Shown here piece after piece: positions 10,199 to 59,759 of a DNA stretch of 64,000 nt. Made by a program: the position numbers and the translations under genes. The stretch lies in the NCBI RefSeq assembly GCF_003946335.1, contig NZ_RHNX01000004.1, forward strand, positions 1-64,000, read 5' to 3'. A model generated the notes under the pieces. The model saw nothing but the letters and a program-made list of their open reading frames with translations, was not told the origin of the DNA and did not search any database. This DNA comes from Levilactobacillus fujinensis (GTDB lineage Bacteria > Bacillota > Bacilli > Lactobacillales > Lactobacillaceae). Position 1 is the stretch's first letter, and each line of letters begins with the position of its first letter.

Positions 10199-11395
10199 TT
10201 AGTTGTTTTTCCGTAACCGTTCAATGTCCCGAACAATCATTAACTCTTCGTCAGTAGGAATCAATAAGGTCTTGATCTTTGAGCCTGCAACACTCAAATC
10301 ACGCTCAACCCCACGAATGTCGTTCTTTTCAGGATCAACACCGATGCCAAAGTATGACAACTTATCAGCAACCTCTTGGCGAATCATAATGTCATTTTCA
10401 CCAACGCCGGCAGTGAAGACAATGGCATCAGCTCCACCTAATTCAGCCAGATAAGACCCCACGTAGCGCACAATCCGGTTAATGAACATGTCACGTGCTA
10501 ACTTGGCACGTGGGTTCTTAGCTTGAACCTTTTCCAAGTCACGCATGTCAGCAGACACACCAGAAACTCCGATTAAACCGGATTTCTTGTTCAAGATATT
10601 GATCATGTCATTAGGCTTGTCGATGTTAAGTTTTTCCATCAGGTAAGCAACCAATGAGGCATCAATATCTCCAGAACGGGTAGCCATCTCGATACCAGCC
10701 AATGGCGTGAAGCCCATTGACGTATCAAAAGACTTGCCATCTTTGATAGCTGTGATCGAACCACCAGCACCCAGGTGCATCGTAATCAGCTTCAAGTCCT
10801 TCAATGGCTTGCCTAGCATTGCAGCGGCACGGCCAGCGACGTAACGGTGACTCGTCCCGTGGGCACCGTACTTACGAGCACCATACTTTTCGTAATATTC
10901 GTAAGGGATAGCGTACATGTAATTTTCTTGTGGCATGGACGTGTGGAAAGAAGTATCAAAAACAGCCACACTCAACACGTTAGGCAAGATTTTTTTGAAC
11001 GCTTCAATCCCTAATGCAGCGGCAGGATTGTGAAGTGGCGCATATTCGGATAAATCCTTGATTTTTTGGAGAACTTCATCGTCAATGATGGCGGAATCCT
11101 TGAATTCTTGACCCCCGGCAACGACCCGGTGACCGATACCAGTGATTTCATTGAAGTCTGTAATGATCTTCAACGCAGTCAATTGGTTCAACATCAACTG
11201 AATAGCGGCACTGTGATCGTTAACGTCTTCGTGCGTTTCGTACTTTTGACCGTTATCATACTTGATTTCGACCAATGAGTTACCCAAACCAATCCGGTCA
11301 ATGGCCCCTTCGGCGATGACCTCTTCTGCAGGCATTTGGAATAACTTGAACTTTAACGTAGAACTACCGGCGTTAATTGCTAATGATTTTCCCAT
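10199..11395 (-). CDS. ackA: Acetate kinase
   Basis: The 398-residue protein converts acetyl phosphate and ADP to acetate and ATP, the ATP-yielding end of the phosphoketolase route in lactobacilli. Visible motifs are NAGSSTLKFK at the N terminus, GHRVVAGG near 90, FDTSFH near 148, the HLGAGGS adenosine-site segment near 208-214, and FTAGVGEN near 320. I start it at ATG 11395; a longer frame reaches into the methyltransferase gene but has no support. An 18-bp gap to that gene suggests one transcript, as in Bacillus ytxK-ackA. Confidence 0.96.
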   Translation of the reverse strand: MGKSLAINAGSSTLKFKLFQMPAEEVIAEGAIDRIGLGNSLVEIKYDNGQKYETHEDVNDHSAAIQLMLNQLTALKIITDFNEITGIGHRVVAGGQEFKDSAIIDDEVLQKIKDLSEYAPLHNPAAALGIEAFKKILPNVLSVAVFDTSFHTSMPQENYMYAIPYEYYEKYGARKYGAHGTSHRYVAGRAAAMLGKPLKDLKLITMHLGAGGSITAIKDGKSFDTSMGFTPLAGIEMATRSGDIDASLVAYLMEKLNIDKPNDMINILNKKSGLIGVSGVSADMRDLEKVQAKNPRAKLARDMFINRIVRYVGSYLAELGGADAIVFTAGVGENDIMIRQEVADKLSYFGIGVDPEKNDIRGVERDLSVAGSKIKTLLIPTDEELMIVRDIERLRKNN

Positions 11396-11412
11396 ATGGT
11401 TTTTTTCTCCTT

Positions 11413-12471
11413 TTATGCGCGGTCCGTCAGTAGATTTTGCTCTTCCCATTGGACGATTTCCGCAACAAACTTTTGAAACGCTGATTGATTCTTAAACGAA
11501 GGGAATTCTCCCAACATCACTTGTTCAACTTGCTTAGCCCCAGCACCTGGCTTTTGTAAAATCAGGATGGCCTTCTGGGCATTGGCGTTCATGAAAAGCT
11601 CACTTGGCAAGTTCAACAAGCCTTGTAAGTAGGCATTGGCAGGCAGCCATTTCAACAGGCCCTTCGCTTCTTTCGTCTGAAAGAGTTGGGAAGGCACTAA
11701 AAATACCCCGATACCGCCAGGAGTCAGTTGATTCACGGCTTGCTCCAACAACAGATGATGAACAAATGAATGACCATCGACCGCACGTGTTTGATAGTTA
11801 GCTGCGTTCTCATCAATCGGGTAATACCCAATTGGCAGATCCGCCACAATCAAATCACTAGCTGGCACCAACAACTGTTCCAAAGCATCTTGGTGAATCA
11901 GTTCAATAGGGAGCCGTTGAAGATCACTCGACGTCTGAGCAATGGCCAATAACGTATCGTCATTATCCACTCCATACGCGTCAATTGTACCAGCAACGAC
12001 TTCCTTTAGTTGTGATAACACTGCCGTTAGCAAATTCCCCGTCCCTACCGTAAGATCCAGCAAGGTTAGATGTGACTTACCCTTTTCCAACCGTGTTACC
12101 AAATAGCCCATGATATAGGCAATCGTATCCGGTGTTAATTGATGGTTTGCTTGAATCTCATCAACCCGAATCGCTTTGAGCATCACTAATTGAACTGCTC
12201 GTCGCACCGTCTCGGCATCGAAGCTTTGCCAATCGACCTGCGCATACAAATCAGTCAATTGGGCCACGACCTTGTCGGCGGGACGACCGTCTTCCACTTG
12301 GACCTGACCATTGAGCAAGTTGTCTCCAGTCTCAATAAACGCATCTAAGTAAGATGTACTTAGCACTGCTTGTAAGGTCGTTGTTGACTCATCTAAGACC
12401 TTAAATAGTGCTTCAGTCTGTTCTTGTGACAGCGCGCTTCGCCTCCTTGTGAAATTCCATGGTACTTGCAT
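11413..12471 (-). CDS. YtxK-type class I SAM-dependent methyltransferase
   Basis: This protein has a Rossmann methyltransferase domain in its C-terminal two thirds with the SAM-binding motif LLDLTVGTGNLL and AYGVDNDD. The N6-adenine methylase-type catalytic motif reads ADLPIGYYP, not the usual NPP(Y/F), so DNA methylation is doubtful. The family lies between comG and ackA in many Firmicutes; its function is unsettled. The 12471 ATG has no ribosome binding site, and a promoter-like TTGAAT-17-TAGTAT sits directly in front of it. AAGGAGG lies 9 nt before an in-frame CTG at 12432, which may be the true start (339 residues). Confidence 0.85.
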   Translation of the reverse strand: MQVPWNFTRRRSALSQEQTEALFKVLDESTTTLQAVLSTSYLDAFIETGDNLLNGQVQVEDGRPADKVVAQLTDLYAQVDWQSFDAETVRRAVQLVMLKAIRVDEIQANHQLTPDTIAYIMGYLVTRLEKGKSHLTLLDLTVGTGNLLTAVLSQLKEVVAGTIDAYGVDNDDTLLAIAQTSSDLQRLPIELIHQDALEQLLVPASDLIVADLPIGYYPIDENAANYQTRAVDGHSFVHHLLLEQAVNQLTPGGIGVFLVPSQLFQTKEAKGLLKWLPANAYLQGLLNLPSELFMNANAQKAILILQKPGAGAKQVEQVMLGEFPSFKNQSAFQKFVAEIVQWEEQNLLTDRA

Positions 12472-12548: not shown

Positions 12549-12764
12549 TCACCAACGCGACCACTTGTGTTGCGCTTGAGTTTCTCCATTAATTTGCCGC
12601 GTTGTCGTCCGATATTCGGTCGTTAAAATCATTGTGGTCTCCCGTTGTCCCGCCTGTCCCACCGAAATCAAGGTCAATAAAAGACTCACACTCGCCAGAA
12701 ATAAGAGTGCCCATAAGGTCAAGAACCCTTGACGCCGCGTAAATCGACTAGCGTTTCTCGCCAT
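12549..12764 (-). CDS. comGG: ComGG-type minor pseudopilin
   Basis: This 71-residue protein is the last gene of the comG operon. It has a basic N terminus (RFTRRQGFL) and one hydrophobic helix at about 15-37, like minor pseudopilins, but lacks the conserved Glu at position 5 after the cleavage site. ComGG is poorly conserved, so the name rests on position and topology. AGGAG lies upstream of the ATG, and the gene overlaps comGF by 46 bp. Confidence 0.72.
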   Translation of the reverse strand: MARNASRFTRRQGFLTLWALLFLASVSLLLTLISVGQAGQRETTMILTTEYRTTTRQINGETQAQHKWSRW

Positions 12765-13171
12765 GGTAAATTCTCCTGTTTAAGCCTAAGTTTGACGACA
12801 CCATGCCCCAGATTCTGCCAATGAATTGTGGTCACGTGTCTGAGTAACGGGTAGTAACCCTGAGTCGCACGTTTCCCCGGCAACGTCGCCGTCATTTTTA
12901 AAACACCCTTCTTGTCCAGCAGCGCCTTCATTTCACGTAATTTTCCCTGCTTATCATGATCCTTAACGACCAAGACATCCCCAGTCGTTCTAACCAACTG
13001 ATACTTGCCTGGCCGTTCCAAAACCTGGACTGCTTGCAACCATGCTAAAGAATCTTGATGAATGCCACGGATCAACGTTCGACTAGTCCCGGATACCAGT
13101 AAAAACATCCCCGCTGTAATCATCAGTGCAAACACCGTTTCAATGAGTGTAAATCCCTGACGACGCATCAT
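12719..13171 (-). CDS. comGF: ComGF-type minor pseudopilin
   Basis: The 150-residue protein begins MMRRQGFTLIETVFALM, a type IV prepilin signal with Gly before Phe at the cleavage site and the conserved Glu, followed by a 20-residue hydrophobic helix. The remaining domain matches ComGF in length and has the late WRETLVDLRG-like end. Its start overlaps the comGE stop (ATGATG), implying translational coupling. It should be a minor component of the competence pseudopilus. Confidence 0.85.
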   Translation of the reverse strand: MMRRQGFTLIETVFALMITAGMFLLVSGTSRTLIRGIHQDSLAWLQAVQVLERPGKYQLVRTTGDVLVVKDHDKQGKLREMKALLDKKGVLKMTATLPGKRATQGYYPLLRHVTTIHWQNLGHGVVKLRLKQENLPWRETLVDLRGVKGS

Positions 13172-13374
13172 TGTTGTGCCAACCAGCGTTCCAATGCTTG
13201 GTCATGTTGTTGGCGTGCCACCAGTAATGCGTGCGTACGCCGCTGTGTCTGTTCTTGCGTTGTCATCAAGACCTGTTGCACCATGATAACCGTCAACGCC
13301 ACAATGCTTAAGGCAATGAGCGCGTCAGGGAGCGTCCACCCACCGCGGTCGCCGAAATTCTTCATCTTCAACAT
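13168..13374 (-). CDS. comGE: ComGE-type minor pseudopilin
   Basis: The 68-residue protein has a hydrophobic segment preceded by DRGGWTLPDALIALS, a diverged prepilin signal in which Glu at position 5 is replaced by Asp after Pro. The start was moved to ATG 13374, placed 11 nt after GGGAGG; the longer frame runs inside comGD and is not credible. It overlaps comGD by 50 bp and comGF by 4 bp. Assigned ComGE by order and topology. Confidence 0.75.
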   Translation of the reverse strand: MLKMKNFGDRGGWTLPDALIALSIVALTVIMVQQVLMTTQEQTQRRTHALLVARQQHDQALERWLAQQ

Positions 13375-13789
13375 TAAAGATAACGCCTCCCATTTGAAAT
13401 GTCTGATAGATCCATCGCTGATCGATTCGACTGTGCCACTCCAACGTACGACCTTGGGCGACACCTGCAGCATCAATGTCCCCACTGCCACCGTTCATAT
13501 GAATCAGCTCCAGTGACTGAGGAATCTCCAGGCTCTTTAGTCGATGATGCTCATGATATAGGGAAACGAGGTGTTGCTTTGCATTAATGCTGACATTGAC
13601 CGTCGTATGATGCGTCATCGCCCACTGTCGACCAGCCGTCCACATCTGCTGCCAGACCGGCCAAAAAGCGCGTTCGGCGACTAATCGATGTTGCTGAGAA
13701 GATTTAAATCCTACTAATACGGTCAAGCCAGTCACCATCATTAAGACTAACAAGGTCTCATAGAGTGTAAATCCTCGTCTATTTGCCAT
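13325..13789 (-). CDS. comGD: ComGD-type minor pseudopilin
   Basis: The 154-residue protein starts MANRRGFTLYETLLVLMMV, a prepilin peptidase site (RG/FTLYE) plus hydrophobic helix, followed by a C-terminal domain of the GspH/ComGD kind. It overlaps comGC by 11 bp. ComGD is needed with the other minor pseudopilins to assemble the DNA-binding pseudopilus in transformable Firmicutes. Confidence 0.85.
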   Translation of the reverse strand: MANRRGFTLYETLLVLMMVTGLTVLVGFKSSQQHRLVAERAFWPVWQQMWTAGRQWAMTHHTTVNVSINAKQHLVSLYHEHHRLKSLEIPQSLELIHMNGGSGDIDAAGVAQGRTLEWHSRIDQRWIYQTFQMGGVIFNVEDEEFRRPRWVDAP

Positions 13790-14102
13790 CTTTGATTTGT
13801 TTCACTTCATTCTTATCGATAACTAAGCCTTCTGTCTTCGCACTCTTGACCTGATCAGCAGTCAAATATTTGCCTGTCAGTTTGGCATAGGTTACGTCTG
13901 GTACCACGTGATTCACGGCAACATAATCGTCAATGTACGCCGTGACTTGTCCCTGAACGACCGTCGTCATCGCCCCCCGATGGATCCCTTGAGCACGCTG
14001 TCTTTGACCATTCAAGTTTGGCAAAATAATCAGGACTAACAGCGAAATAATGAATAGGACAATCGTCATTTCAATCAGCGTGAAACCTTGTCGTTTACGC
14101 AT
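13779..14102 (-). CDS. comGC: Major competence pseudopilin ComGC
   Basis: This 107-residue prepilin begins MRKRQGFTLIEMTIVLFII with a textbook G/FTLIE processing site and hydrophobic helix. The rest has the compact fold typical of ComGC, with GKYLTADQV, and lacks a disulfide pair. It is the main subunit of the transformation pseudopilus and would be cleaved by ComC, which is not in the window. GGGGG lies before the ATG, which overlaps the comGB stop by one base. Confidence 0.92.
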   Translation of the reverse strand: MRKRQGFTLIEMTIVLFIISLLVLIILPNLNGQRQRAQGIHRGAMTTVVQGQVTAYIDDYVAVNHVVPDVTYAKLTGKYLTADQVKSAKTEGLVIDKNEVKQIKDGK

Positions 14103-15151
14103 TAAGCGACCCCCTGTAAGTTTTGATACATTGGTAACAATAGACTTAAATAGGCCCCCACAATCAGCAGCGCAACGATTCCTAGTAAGAGGGGCTGGAC
14201 AATGGCCAACCCCTGCTCACTGCGGCGGACTAACTCCCGATACTGTAAGCGACTATACGCCGTCAACTCTCTACCGAGTTGGGGCGTTGTGCTCCCCTTT
14301 TGCAGGAGAATAATGACCTGCGGGGGAATGTAGGACTGATTCCGTAGCCAAACGATCGGCAAGTCTCCGACCGATAAGTGTTGTGCTAACACCGCCGCCA
14401 ATTGATGCAGCAACGCCCGCTCTGGCAACTGATCTAATACCCGCAGCATTTGCTTGATACTGAGACCACTGTGTACCATTTGACTTAAATTGAGGGTCAA
14501 ATAGTAGGCGTAGTAAGCACGAAAAAGGTGCCCCACCACCGGCCAATGTAAGATCCACTTGGCACGTAATAAGCTCGACTGGCGATGCCACCATCGCCAG
14601 CCCAACGCGCTAGTTCCCACGATCAATAGACTGCCCCCCACCACAAGGTAGTCCCGCCATCCCCTGCTTAGGATTCCGTCGCGCCCCATCTCCTGTTGTA
14701 GTTGTGGCAAGATCACCACCCGTAACGTGACAAATACTAACGCCATACTTGCAAGTAGACCCATGGGATAGACCAACAACTGATGTAGTCGCCGACGCTG
14801 CGTAGCCATCAGCTGCAACAATGTAGCCGCTTGATCGAGTGCTGGCGCCAATTCCCCATATTTTGTCATCAGTTCGAGTTGAAAGTAAACGTTTGCCTGT
14901 AAATAAGGCGCCATTAATCCCACAAAATCCGCTCCCGCCGCTAAACGAAGCTCCAAATTAGCCACTTCATTCGGTAGACCATTGGCAACGACACAAATAA
15001 AATGGACCGCTTGCTTTAGAGAAAAACCGCTTTGAAGTTGATCCGCTAAGAGGCGGCAAAACTGGGCCTGCTGCGTTAAAGTCCACCTACCCCGCCCGAA
15101 AATTTTGTTGCGTTGTTGTTGTAATCGTTCCTGCACGGACTGCTTGCTCAA
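14102..15151 (-). CDS. comGB: ComGB, polytopic membrane platform of the competence pseudopilus
   Basis: The 349-residue protein has two type II secretion F domains (about 25-145 and 225-345) and three membrane helices near 125-150, 172-190 and 318-340. It anchors pseudopilus assembly and contacts the ComGA ATPase. The start is a TTG at 15151 that overlaps comGA by 65 bp; the ribosome binding site is distant, so a slightly later start is possible. Confidence 0.9.
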   Translation of the reverse strand: MSKQSVQERLQQQRNKIFGRGRWTLTQQAQFCRLLADQLQSGFSLKQAVHFICVVANGLPNEVANLELRLAAGADFVGLMAPYLQANVYFQLELMTKYGELAPALDQAATLLQLMATQRRRLHQLLVYPMGLLASMALVFVTLRVVILPQLQQEMGRDGILSRGWRDYLVVGGSLLIVGTSALGWRWWHRQSSLLRAKWILHWPVVGHLFRAYYAYYLTLNLSQMVHSGLSIKQMLRVLDQLPERALLHQLAAVLAQHLSVGDLPIVWLRNQSYIPPQVIILLQKGSTTPQLGRELTAYSRLQYRELVRRSEQGLAIVQPLLLGIVALLIVGAYLSLLLPMYQNLQGVA

Positions 15152-16055
15152 GAGTCTGTCGCCATCCTTCCGTCATCTGACTGGCTGCATCCCAAATTGT
15201 ATCCGTAGTTAAAATATCCAATAGTACGGCTGGCACTTGTGTCACCCGTGGAATCAGGCGCTGATAGCAGGCCGCCGTCAAGACTTGTCGAAGTTGCTGT
15301 AAAGACACGCCTAGTTCAGTCAGACGCGAAATCGTCCCGGCCGCACTCCGCGCATGAACGGTCGTCAAGACCAGGTGACCACTTAATGCTGCTCGCACCG
15401 CCGCTTGGGCTGTCACTTGGTCGCGAATTTCGCCAATAATAAACACGTCCGGGCGATGACGTAACCCCACCTTGATCAAATCGGCATAGGTCATCCCGGC
15501 CGTTGGATTGACCTGCAGTTGAATGAACCGTGACTCTTTGATCTCAACGGGGTCCTCAATCGTCAAGACCAAGGCCGTCGTGCATAGTCGACTTGCTGTA
15601 GCGTACATGGTCGTGGTCTTTCCTGACCCAGTTGGTCCTGCAAATACCATCAGTCCCCGTTTCCCTGCCAATTGCATCAAAGTCGTGGCTTGCTGTGGCA
15701 CCAAATAAGCCGCTTGTGTCGCCGTATATGGATAAATCAACCGAATCACCAAGGATTCTTTTCCGGCATAGTCCCCAACCGTGGAAAACCGAAGCTCTAC
15801 CGGCAACTGCTCGTGGGTCCAGGTCAGAGCCCCCACTTGTGGTCGCCGATTCTCACTAACCGCCATGTCTGCATGAAACTTAAAGTAAGTCATTATCTGC
15901 AATCCTGTTGCAAATGGCACCGTTTGCCAAATGGTGACGGCTTGTAACCGCCGAAAACGAATCTGATAATCCGCTTGATGGGGAATAACATAGATGTCAC
16001 TGACTTTCTGATCAATCGCCTGCGCTAGTAATTTTTCAATAAATGGTTTAATCAC
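15087..16055 (-). CDS. comGA: ComGA, competence pseudopilus assembly ATPase
   Basis: The 322-residue protein is a PilB/GspE-type ATPase. It shows Walker A GPTGSGKTTT near 140, the Asp box TIEDPVE near 167, Walker B HRPDVFIIGEIRD near 203, and the His box VLTTVHARS near 232. It powers assembly of the ComGC pseudopilus for DNA uptake. The start is GTG after GGGAGG. The gene heads a seven-gene operon with overlapping ends. The upstream DNA has no usual -10/-35 pair but shares a bipartite motif with cinA, suggesting control by a competence sigma factor. Confidence 0.95.
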   Translation of the reverse strand: MIKPFIEKLLAQAIDQKVSDIYVIPHQADYQIRFRRLQAVTIWQTVPFATGLQIMTYFKFHADMAVSENRRPQVGALTWTHEQLPVELRFSTVGDYAGKESLVIRLIYPYTATQAAYLVPQQATTLMQLAGKRGLMVFAGPTGSGKTTTMYATASRLCTTALVLTIEDPVEIKESRFIQLQVNPTAGMTYADLIKVGLRHRPDVFIIGEIRDQVTAQAAVRAALSGHLVLTTVHARSAAGTISRLTELGVSLQQLRQVLTAACYQRLIPRVTQVPAVLLDILTTDTIWDAASQMTEGWRQTLEQAVRAGTITTTTQQNFRAG

Positions 16056-16086
16056 CGTTCCTACCTCCCGTGTTGCTTTAAGTTAA

Positions 16087-16110
16087 CTCCGTAAAAGAAC
16101 GCCGAATATT
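16087..16110 (-). promoter_or_regulatory. Candidate competence sigma factor promoter of comGA
   Basis: On the minus strand AATATTCG (16103-16110), 10 bp, then ACGGAG (16087-16092) followed by TTAACT. The same arrangement occurs upstream of cinA, and the distance to the start codon is almost equal (31 and 30 bp). No vegetative promoter is visible here. Confidence 0.6.
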
Positions 16111-16130
16111 TTATTTTTTCAAAAAAGCAC

Positions 16131-16160
16131 AAAAAAAAGAAGACTCCGCTGGGAATCTTC
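16131..16160 (-). terminator. Terminator of yebC
   Basis: The minus strand reads GAAGATTCC, CAGC loop, GGAGTCTTC, then eight T. It insulates the comG operon from yebC. Confidence 0.9.
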
Positions 16161-16171
16161 TTTCAGAAGTA

Positions 16172-57219: not shown

Positions 57220-58356
57220 TTATTTAGTATCTGGCTTATTCGCCGTATCTGGGGTCAAATCCATCTGAGTAGCCGTGTCCTTGGGCTTAACCTTAGACTT
57301 GGTATCCTTCTCAACAGCCTTATCTTTCCCCTTAGTGTCAGCCTTCTTCGACGCAGCAGCGTCATCGTCAGCAACACCATAGGCAGCCCGGACACGTTGG
57401 TTCACTTCAGCCATCATGTCAGCATGATCAGCTAAATACTGCTTGGCATTCTCACGACCTTGACCAATTCGGTCTTCGCCATAAGAGTACCATGAGCCAC
57501 TCTTATCAACGATTTCCTTTTCAACGGCCATGTCGATCAATTCACCGGTTTGAGAAATCCCGTGACCATACATGATATCGACTTCAGCACGCTTAAACGG
57601 TGGCGCAACCTTGTTCTTAACAACTTTGATTCGAGTCCGGTTACCAATCACGTTGGTCCCGTCCTTGATTTGTTCTGCGCGCCGAACTTCAAGCCGAACT
57701 GTTGCGTAGAACTTCAAGGCCCGACCACCAGGCGTGGTTTCAGGGTTACCAAACATAACCCCAACCTTTTCACGAATTTGGTTAATGAACAGGGCAATTG
57801 TCTTAGTCTTGTTGATTGTCCCAGAAAGCTTCCGTAAAGCCTGTGACATCATCCGGGCTTGTAGGCCCACATGCGCGTCACCCATTTCGCCTTCAATTTC
57901 GGCACGTGGTACCAGAGCAGCAACGGAGTCAACGACCACGATGTCAACAGCACCACTAGAAATCAAGGCATCAGCAATCTGTAACCCTTGTTCCCCGGTA
58001 TCCGGTTGTGAGAGCAGCAGATCATCAATGTTAACCCCTAAGGCCGTCGCGTAAGCTGGGTCCAAAGCGTTTTCAGCATCGATATAAGCTGCAGTCCCAC
58101 CGCGCTTTTGCACCTCGGCAACGGCGTGTAAGGCCACAGTCGTTTTCCCTGAAGATTCTGGACCGTAGATTTCTACGATTCGTCCTCGGGGATATCCGCC
58201 GACCCCTAACGCTACATCAAGAGCTAACGAGCCAGATGGTACGACGCTTACTTGCATTTTGGTATTGTCGCCCATCCGCATGATGGACCCCTTACCAAAG
58301 TCTTTTTCAATTTTCTTCAGCGCTTTATCTAACGCCGCTTGCCGTTCGTCAGCCAT
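57220..58356 (-). CDS. recA: Recombinase RecA
   Basis: The 378-residue recombinase has Walker [10 protein letters not shown] near 67-75, Walker [15 protein letters not shown] near 140, loop L1 segment [18 protein letters not shown], and loop L2 [18 protein letters not shown] near 205. A Lys/Asp-rich tail follows residue 330. ATG 58356 follows AAAGGAGG. It has its own promoter with an SOS-type box upstream and may also be read through from cinA. Confidence 0.98.
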
Positions 58357-58392
58357 CCAAATCCTCCTTTGAAACATCAATATTCAAGTAAC

Positions 58393-58446: not shown

Positions 58447-59697
58447 TTATTTTTTAGCTTGCAAAATTCGACGAATCCAGTCTAATCCGGTCATGACTGT
58501 TCTTTCGCGAATCTTAGCCCGGGTCCCTGTCAGCCGAATCAGCTGTGCTTGCGCGGCTTGCCCACGCTGGGCTAAGCCGATCCACACAGTTCCCGCGGGT
58601 TGGCCTTCCAATGCATCTGGACCAGCGACACCGGTAAAGCTCAACGCAAAATCGGTGTCTAATTTTTGCCGGGAACGTTCCGCCATTTCCTTGGCTGTAG
58701 CTTCACTTACGACCCCTTGTTCGTCAATCGTCTTTTCAGGAACACCCAGCAACACATGCTTTGCTTCATTGGCATAAGTCACAAAACCACCCGGGAAGAT
58801 GGCCGAGACGCCAGGAACATCACCTAGCGTACTCTGAAACTCGCCAGCCGTTAAACTTTCAGCTGCCGTAATGGTCAAATGCCGTGCAATCAGTTCGTTC
58901 ACGACAACTTGGGCTAATGTATTGTCATCGCCGTAACCATAAAGGTAATCCCCCACCCGATCCTTGATTGTCACAATCATGTTATCCAACAAGTGCTGTC
59001 CAGTAACCTCGTCTTCAGCCCTAGCAGTTAATCGTAGCGTGACTTCGGTTTCCTTAGCATAAGGGGCAATCGTCGGGTTTGTCTGATGCGCAATCAAATC
59101 ATTCAGTTCCGTCACCAATTGTGATTCGCCAATACCAAAGAACCGCAATACCCGTGACACCAAGTATTCTTGGCGTTGGTAGGCCCGCTTCAATCGCGGT
59201 AAGGCTTCCTTCAGAAACATTGGCTCCAATTCACTTGGTGGTCCAGGCAGCAACAACATATCTGCCCCATTAAGAGACTGATAGAAGGCACCTACAGCCA
59301 TTCCCGTTGTATTCTTGAGGGATTGACTGCCGGCAGGGTAAAGTGCCTGTAATCGATTATTAGGCGTTAATTTTCGGCCGGTCACAGCAAAGTGATGTTG
59401 AATCTTCGCCATGGCAACCTCATCTTCTACCAGCTTAACACCAAGCAATTGTGCCACTGTCTGCTTAGTCAGATCATCTTTAGTCGGTCCTAACCCCCCA
59501 CTAATGATCACCAAGTCACTTCGTGAGCGTGCCTGTTCCAGTACCGCCGTTAAACGATCGGCGTTGTCACCCACTAGAGAATGATAATAAACTTCAATGC
59601 CGGCCTCGGCCAGCTCCCGTGCAACAAACGCTGAGTTGGTATCCACGACTTGACCCAATAAAATTTCCGTTCCAACGGCAATGATCTCCGCTTGCAT
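58447..59697 (-). CDS. cinA: Competence/damage-inducible protein CinA
   Basis: The 416-residue protein has the N-terminal molybdopterin-binding-like domain (IIAVGTEILLG, SGGLGPTKDD near 67, LLPGPPSEL near 150) and the C-terminal CinA domain with TAAESLTAGEF near 280, GGFVTYANEAK near 302 and FTGVAGPD near 362 (NMN deamidase type). CinA brings RecA to the membrane in transformable streptococci. AGGAGGGG precedes the ATG. A motif shared with comGA lies upstream. Confidence 0.95.
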   Translation of the reverse strand: MQAEIIAVGTEILLGQVVDTNSAFVARELAEAGIEVYYHSLVGDNADRLTAVLEQARSRSDLVIISGGLGPTKDDLTKQTVAQLLGVKLVEDEVAMAKIQHHFAVTGRKLTPNNRLQALYPAGSQSLKNTTGMAVGAFYQSLNGADMLLLPGPPSELEPMFLKEALPRLKRAYQRQEYLVSRVLRFFGIGESQLVTELNDLIAHQTNPTIAPYAKETEVTLRLTARAEDEVTGQHLLDNMIVTIKDRVGDYLYGYGDDNTLAQVVVNELIARHLTITAAESLTAGEFQSTLGDVPGVSAIFPGGFVTYANEAKHVLLGVPEKTIDEQGVVSEATAKEMAERSRQKLDTDFALSFTGVAGPDALEGQPAGTVWIGLAQRGQAAQAQLIRLTGTRAKIRERTVMTGLDWIRRILQAKK

Positions 59698-59727
59698 TGG
59701 TGACCCCTCCTACGGTTACATAGTTAT

Positions 59728-59751
59728 CTCCGTAAAAACGCTACGAATATT
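59728..59751 (-). promoter_or_regulatory. Candidate competence sigma factor promoter of cinA-recA
   Basis: On the minus strand AATATTCG (59744-59751), 10 bp, ACGGAG (59728-59733), then ATAACT. Sequence and spacing equal the comGA motif; distance to the ATG is 30 bp. Confidence 0.6.
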
Positions 59752-59759
59752 TTTTATTT

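Follow-up and report, generated by a model that had tools for sequence, protein, structure and literature searches.

In streptococci, the cin-box (com-box) read by ComX/SigX stands before comGA and is common to other late competence genes. Bacillus subtilis SigH has different recognition sequences and a role in sporulation; it shares the sigma factor group and the gene neighbourhood with the Levilactobacillus protein considered below. For Latilactobacillus sakei, the parts of PMC3364868 covered describe SigH as driving competence genes and place sigH in a cysS-nusG locus, a neighbourhood similar to that in Levilactobacillus. With SigH overexpressed, the expression of comEA, comGC, comFA, comC and dprA rose 261- to 2163-fold by qPCR, that of comGA 280-fold, that of recA 2.7-fold and that of ssb 1.2-fold (PMC3364868, same parts). 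On the array, rpsR and the acetate kinase and methyltransferase genes near comG were up 1.5- to 1.9-fold, with LSA1299/LSA1298 (methyltransferase, acetate kinase) at 1.9-fold. Those parts give no promoter motif, and none of the terms motif, consensus or cin-box appears in that paper's main text. No lactobacillar competence promoter motif was found in the titles and abstract beginnings covered, which came from a library with few subscription journals and do not prove novelty. Judged by its sequence, the box described here would be a new variant of a late-competence promoter type that is already known.

The element before comGA and cinA

The DNA analysed (the window) is a stretch of 64,000 nucleotides from Levilactobacillus fujinensis. 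The original prediction was that comGA and cinA share a two-part motif on the minus strand, AATATTCG-N10-ACGGAG followed by WTAACT. Both copies are exact and their spacing is identical. The comGA copy (16087-16110, minus strand) reads AATATTCG GCGTTCTTTT ACGGAG and then TTAACT, and the cinA copy (59728-59751, minus strand) reads AATATTCG TAGCGTTTTT ACGGAG and then ATAACT. At comGA, the ACGGAG core of the -10-like element (TTTTACGGAGTTAAC) is an exact match at 16087..16092, its TTAACT extension lies at 16081..16086 (conservation in the genus: T5 0.89, T6 1.00, A7 0.93) and the A/T-rich upstream part AATATTCG at 16103..16110, its A/T block conserved and its CG poorly so. At cinA, core (59728..59733), extension (59722..59727) and upstream part (59744..59751) all match exactly. 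The distances from hexamer to start codon, when re-measured, agreed with those predicted: 31 bp for comGA (GTG) and 30 bp for cinA (ATG).

Both gene names were upheld by NCBIfam models. The first gene of the comG operon, comGA (15087..16055, minus strand; NF041000 ComGA), encodes a protein 89–90% identical to ComGA of L. koreensis and L. andaensis. The remaining operon (12719..15151, minus strand) holds a T2SSF protein and two ORFs with N_methyl pseudopilin signals, and behind it on the same strand follow genes for a YtxK-like N6 methyltransferase (11413..12471) and acetate kinase (10199..11449). The yebC-like gene upstream is followed by a terminator-like repeat (16135..16164, minus strand), which sets that gene apart from comGA. 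The cinA gene (58447..59697, minus strand; NF001813 CinA) is followed by recA (57220..58380, minus strand).

By a first-order estimate, the exact pair pattern is expected 4.6e-4 times per window, and the probability of two copies by chance is ~1e-7. At three mismatches the window held seven matches and shuffled sequences a mean of 5.1; as this count is ordinary, only exact or near-exact forms are informative. The predicted absence of a vegetative promoter was confirmed. No sigma-A promoter (TTGACA-17-TATAAT) was found near comGA (shuffles: 0.4) and none was accepted near cinA, where one weak match (9/12, ~120-150 bp upstream of the element) was not above shuffles (mean: 0.6).

Comparison with the streptococcal box

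The predicted alignment with streptococci, in which CGAATA would be read on the opposite strand in the window, did not hold. All five Streptococcus comGA upstreams compared carry CGAATA on the same strand as the gene, just before the ribosome-binding site, where ACGGAG stands in Levilactobacillus and GCGTANTTA in many other genera. The streptococcal box TACGAATA therefore corresponds to the sense-strand ACGGAG. The opposite-strand CGAATA was rejected as a counterpart: it arises when the upstream part AATATTCG, whose CG is poorly conserved, is read as its reverse complement. In Facklamia, two of four comGA upstreams have GCGTATTTAA or GTGTATTTAT at the place of the box.

The Levilactobacillus box thus resembles the streptococcal cin-box in that CG forms its centre and that it stands on the sense strand directly upstream of comGA. 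A CG-containing box of this kind was found a short distance before the other genes too, with rpsF-ssb farther away (163 bp). The letters differ, CGAATA in streptococci (TACGAATA in two of five) versus CGGAGTTA in Levilactobacillus. Unlike the cin-box, the Levilactobacillus box is accompanied by a conserved A-rich block ~20 bp upstream.

Distribution in the genome

If the motif were a late-competence promoter of lactobacillar type, it should recur before further competence genes. The whole genome (3,007,089 bases in 103 contigs) bears this out: exactly or with a few mismatches, the motif also precedes the core competence genes comEA, comFA, comC, dprA and, through rpsF, ssb, and in exact or near form coiA and radC. 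With at most one mismatch, AATATTCG-N10-ACGGAG was found at five places in the genome (comGA, cinA, rpsF-ssb, dprA and position 47912 of contig C12), and with exactly two mismatches at 17 more, comEA among them. Three of the 20 further matches at up to two mismatches precede competence genes, for which the chance is 3e-8 to 1e-6, varying with the number of upstream bases allowed.

A widened pattern was built after the first sites had been seen; comFA, radC and comC played no part in its building. It matched exactly at six places (comFA, comGA, cinA, radC, comEA and a contig-end site behind eno), with one mismatch at four (C12:47912, an unknown 160-aa ORF, rpsF-ssb and dprA) and with two mismatches at 14, including comC. 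Hence, only 10 matches at zero or one mismatch occur in 3.0 Mb, seven of them before canonical genes. Up to three mismatches, there were 216 matches versus 182 for the reversed control; as this is little above control, the near-exact sites alone are meaningful.

Altogether, nine transcription units share the element: comG, comE, comF, comC, dprA, coiA, radC, rpsF-ssb and cinA. The distance to the start codon is 19-31 bp for these units and the 160-aa ORF, except for the 163 bp of rpsF-ssb. ComFA was identified by its helicase domains and reading only, ComC by A24 peptidase domains and RadC by Pfam.

Conservation and matrix scores in Levilactobacillus

The upstreams of comGA, dprA, comFA and rpsF were taken from Levilactobacillus genomes (57 in total), and in 55 of them a CG[GT]A box reaches 6/9 or more against CGGAGTTAA. 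In the box, the picking rule imposes CG and A; beside these, conservation over the 55 sites was G 0.89, G 0.89, T 0.89, T 1.00 and A 0.93. The T at -3 from CG (0.84) and an A block at -21 to -18 (0.76-0.93) were also conserved. While GGAGTTA is well conserved, the CG of AATATTCG is not (C 0.35, G 0.53).

For a matrix, 39 of the 55 sites were used. The window genome and cinA contributed no site to it, and those dropped were the comGA sites of the three nearest species and several others, weaker for the most part. In the window, the putative promoter unit of comGA (16082..16115, minus strand) scored 37.0 bits and that of cinA (59723..59756, minus strand) 31.5 bits, the third best site only 9.8 bits. 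Across 30 simulated 64-kb windows, the null maximum was 15.9 bits.

Thirteen different sites scored above 14 bits in 220 kb of loci from the window genome, which overlap, were fetched mostly for pattern matches and are not a random sample. Nine precede the canonical competence units, one the 160-aa ORF and one lies behind eno; the remaining two, C12:47912 and C16:34375, have no gene close behind. The coiA site surfaced through the matrix; the locus holding it had been fetched because of a chance pattern match. Since the training set holds sites of near relatives, the scores of dprA, comFA and rpsF are not independent; those of cinA, comEA, comC, radC and coiA are. Among relatives, G201 has a radC site of 13.8 bits, slightly short of the 14-bit threshold, and of three G302 matches without a gene, two scored 7.0 and below.

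A tighter pattern with at most one mismatch gave 256 matches in 35 Levilactobacillus genomes versus 43 for the reversed pattern. Per genome, matches outnumbered the control in 32 of 35, equalled it in two and were fewer in one. Twenty of the listed matches were inspected, in four genomes. Known competence genes followed in nine cases: comEA (3), radC (3), cinA (2) and coiA (1, CoiA_nuc).

Boxes across Lactobacillaceae

The comGA gene was found in 296 of 301 family genomes, and its upstreams were compared in 66 genomes of 38 genera including Levilactobacillus. Boxes resembling TGCGTANTTA were found in many other genera of the family. The widened Levilactobacillus pattern gave eight matches in 286 genomes outside the genus versus eight for the control over 301 genomes, which is the chance level, and a family matrix was therefore trained. 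An unsupervised motif search in 37 genera was discarded: it locked on to a terminator T-tract, which stands directly before the box in many comGA upstreams, followed by GCGT. For this reason, a CG-anchored model was used, with TACGTAATTAA as the seed and 51 non-Levilactobacillus comGA upstreams for training. Its consensus is TGCGTATTTAA. In these training data, 36 of 51 upstreams (26 of 37 genera) scored above 7.9 bits; of those below, some have a visible related box, e.g. ACGTAACTTA, and some have none.

Applied to other genes in 16 other genomes, the matrix exceeded the 95% control level in 30 of 46 upstreams (dprA 10/15, comFA 9/16, rpsF 11/15); two rows were left out, dprA of G062 (split gene) and rpsF of G199 (contig break). 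In Levilactobacillus, where the box differs, the same matrix passed dprA in 1/14, comFA in 8/14 and rpsF in 9/14. Six Latilactobacillus genomes were taken as a group, with L. sakei presumably among them: dprA passed in 2/5, comFA in 2/6 and rpsF in 5/6. Most of the failing upstreams have boxes such as ACGGATTATT or ACGTAACTAT at the same place by eye. L. sakei shares with Levilactobacillus the family, the genes (comG, comE, comF, comC, dprA) and a similar sigH neighbourhood; the Latilactobacillus boxes are of the CGTA, CGGA and CGAA types and often divergent.

The split dprA of the Latilactobacillus genome G062 (G062:C1:423300-427300 and G062:C1:456500-460800; loci L372 and L373) is interrupted by an insertion of ~36 kb, one edge of which carries a phage-type tyrosine integrase. 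The insertion is reminiscent of the prophages known to be inserted in comK.

Sigma factor and competing explanations

From the element as observed, with its positions, conservation and specificity, we infer a promoter that is read by SigH. Very probably, the element serves as the Levilactobacillus late-competence promoter, used by RNA polymerase with a SigH/ComX-type sigma factor and starting nine units for DNA uptake and processing. The sigma factor would be the product of the gene between yacP-like and rpmG-secE-nusG-like genes. It would recognise mainly the sense-strand sequence T(A/G)CGGAGTTAA around -10 and, more weakly, the A-rich block centred ~20 bp upstream of the CG, and transcription of comG, comE, comF, comC, dprA, coiA, radC, rpsF-ssb and cinA-recA would start from there.

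In Levilactobacillus, the element is presumably linked to a sigma factor. A sigH gene, flanked by ORFs read as yacP and rpmG-secE-nusG, was matched in all 35 genomes of the genus; this favours the SigH promoter, as does the strong induction of comGA, comEA, comFA, comC and dprA by SigH in L. sakei. In 34 it has an open frame of 187-237 aa; in the window genome (G000:C30, L078 1489-2113, minus strand) a 176-aa frame is broken near its start by a frameshift, either a mutation or an assembly error. This frameshift counts against the SigH promoter, as do the strong sites without a gene (C12:47912 and C16:34375), the limited success of the family matrix at dprA, comFA and rpsF of Levilactobacillus and the loose bridge to L. 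sakei. Most dprA and comFA upstreams of Latilactobacillus fail the matrix, so the agreement of the boxes with the SigH regulon of L. sakei is suggestive, not tight, and this slightly lowered our confidence. The weak response of ssb in L. sakei also counts against a simple one-to-one correspondence, unless a strong constitutive promoter masks the induction.

The frameshift would fit a promoter read by another sigma-like protein. A candidate is a 193-aa protein with an HTH end (C42:7336, L081 1465-2046, minus strand), a weak sigma70 match of 25 bits, below the cut-off. We consider this very improbable: the best Pfam match of the protein is HTH_23, sigH is matched in every genome of the genus, and it is SigH that drives the competence genes in L. 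sakei, as stated in the parts of PMC3364868 covered.

An operator for a DNA-binding competence activator, ComK-like or other, would equally mark a regulon, as the element does. The ComK AT-box is AAAA-N5-TTTT, and paired boxes upstream of a gene form the K-box. No AT-box was found in the 210-220 bp around the comGA or cinA site, nor were paired boxes found at either gene. Moreover, the element is single and asymmetric and lies 19-31 bp from most starts, comGA lacks a recognisable vegetative promoter beside it, and streptococci carry their CGAATA box at the same place. In favour of an operator, the parts of PMC3616900 covered list ComK among the regulator families of Lactobacillaceae and not of Streptococcaceae, in regulator sets that exclude sigma factors. 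On balance, an operator is very improbable, if slightly less so than a second sigma factor. Chance resemblance, or shared coding or terminator sequence, is refuted as a general account and hardly credible: the radC site does overlap the end of the upstream ORF, and a T-tract just before the box is seen in many comGA upstreams, but nine transcription units of one genome share the element, the genus has six times as many matches as the control and the window sites score far above the null.

Beyond the genus, it is plausible, and slightly favoured, that the SigH-read promoter belongs to a family-wide competence promoter code of Lactobacillaceae, TGCGTANTTA, which in Levilactobacillus drifted to ACGGAGTTA alongside a fast-evolving SigH. 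Such a code would expose regulon members not known from streptococci, namely a protein with an SSB-like OB fold, a secreted protein encoded behind eno and, in some species, Fic/HigB-type genes. If so, lactobacilli would have a complete and maintained competence programme. Natural DNA uptake by lactobacilli is an old open question and has long been suspected. A promoter signature of the uptake regulon would be a direct reporter and a list of the genes that need to be intact, and lets promising species and strains be chosen for uptake testing. The data also suggest that promoter recognition drifts between genera while the regulon is unchanged.

Further sites and genes behind the element

The unknown 160-aa protein is encoded at G000:C16:81588-82067 (L037 996-1478, minus strand), with a box above 14 bits in front. 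It has no Pfam or NCBIfam match and was found in six of 30 genomes tested, all Levilactobacillus. Four of them (G000, G302, G305, G234) have a box above 14 bits before the gene; G111 and G279 do not. Its predicted structure (mean pLDDT 71) weakly resembles single-stranded-DNA-binding OB folds. A fold search gave B. subtilis SsbA with E 0.024 and probability 0.97, and no match at E ≤ 0.001. The protein may be a competence-dedicated SSB-like protein, which is a lead, not a finding.

The strong site at C12:47912 (L036 1501-1590) is followed by ~50 bases and a terminator-like repeat, with no ORF; it may be a small RNA, a remnant or chance. The site at C16:34375-34402 (L043 1501-1528, minus strand) overlaps a terminator-like repeat and the end of a protease-like ORF, to which it is antisense. 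The same arrangement is present in G302, and no gene lies close behind in the right direction.

Among the remaining inspected genus matches, one precedes the 160-aa family and two precede ORFs with no family assignment (L355, L371); at three (L352, L356, L357) no convincing gene follows. In the window genome, the contig ends at the strong site behind eno (L014 1501-1612). In two relatives (L354, L367), the eno site precedes a secreted-looking protein, with no Pfam match in the one tested. In two species (L353, L360), a Fic-family gene with a preceding short ORF lies behind the putative competence promoter, and in a third (L366) a HigB-like toxin gene, an assignment below Pfam's cut-off.
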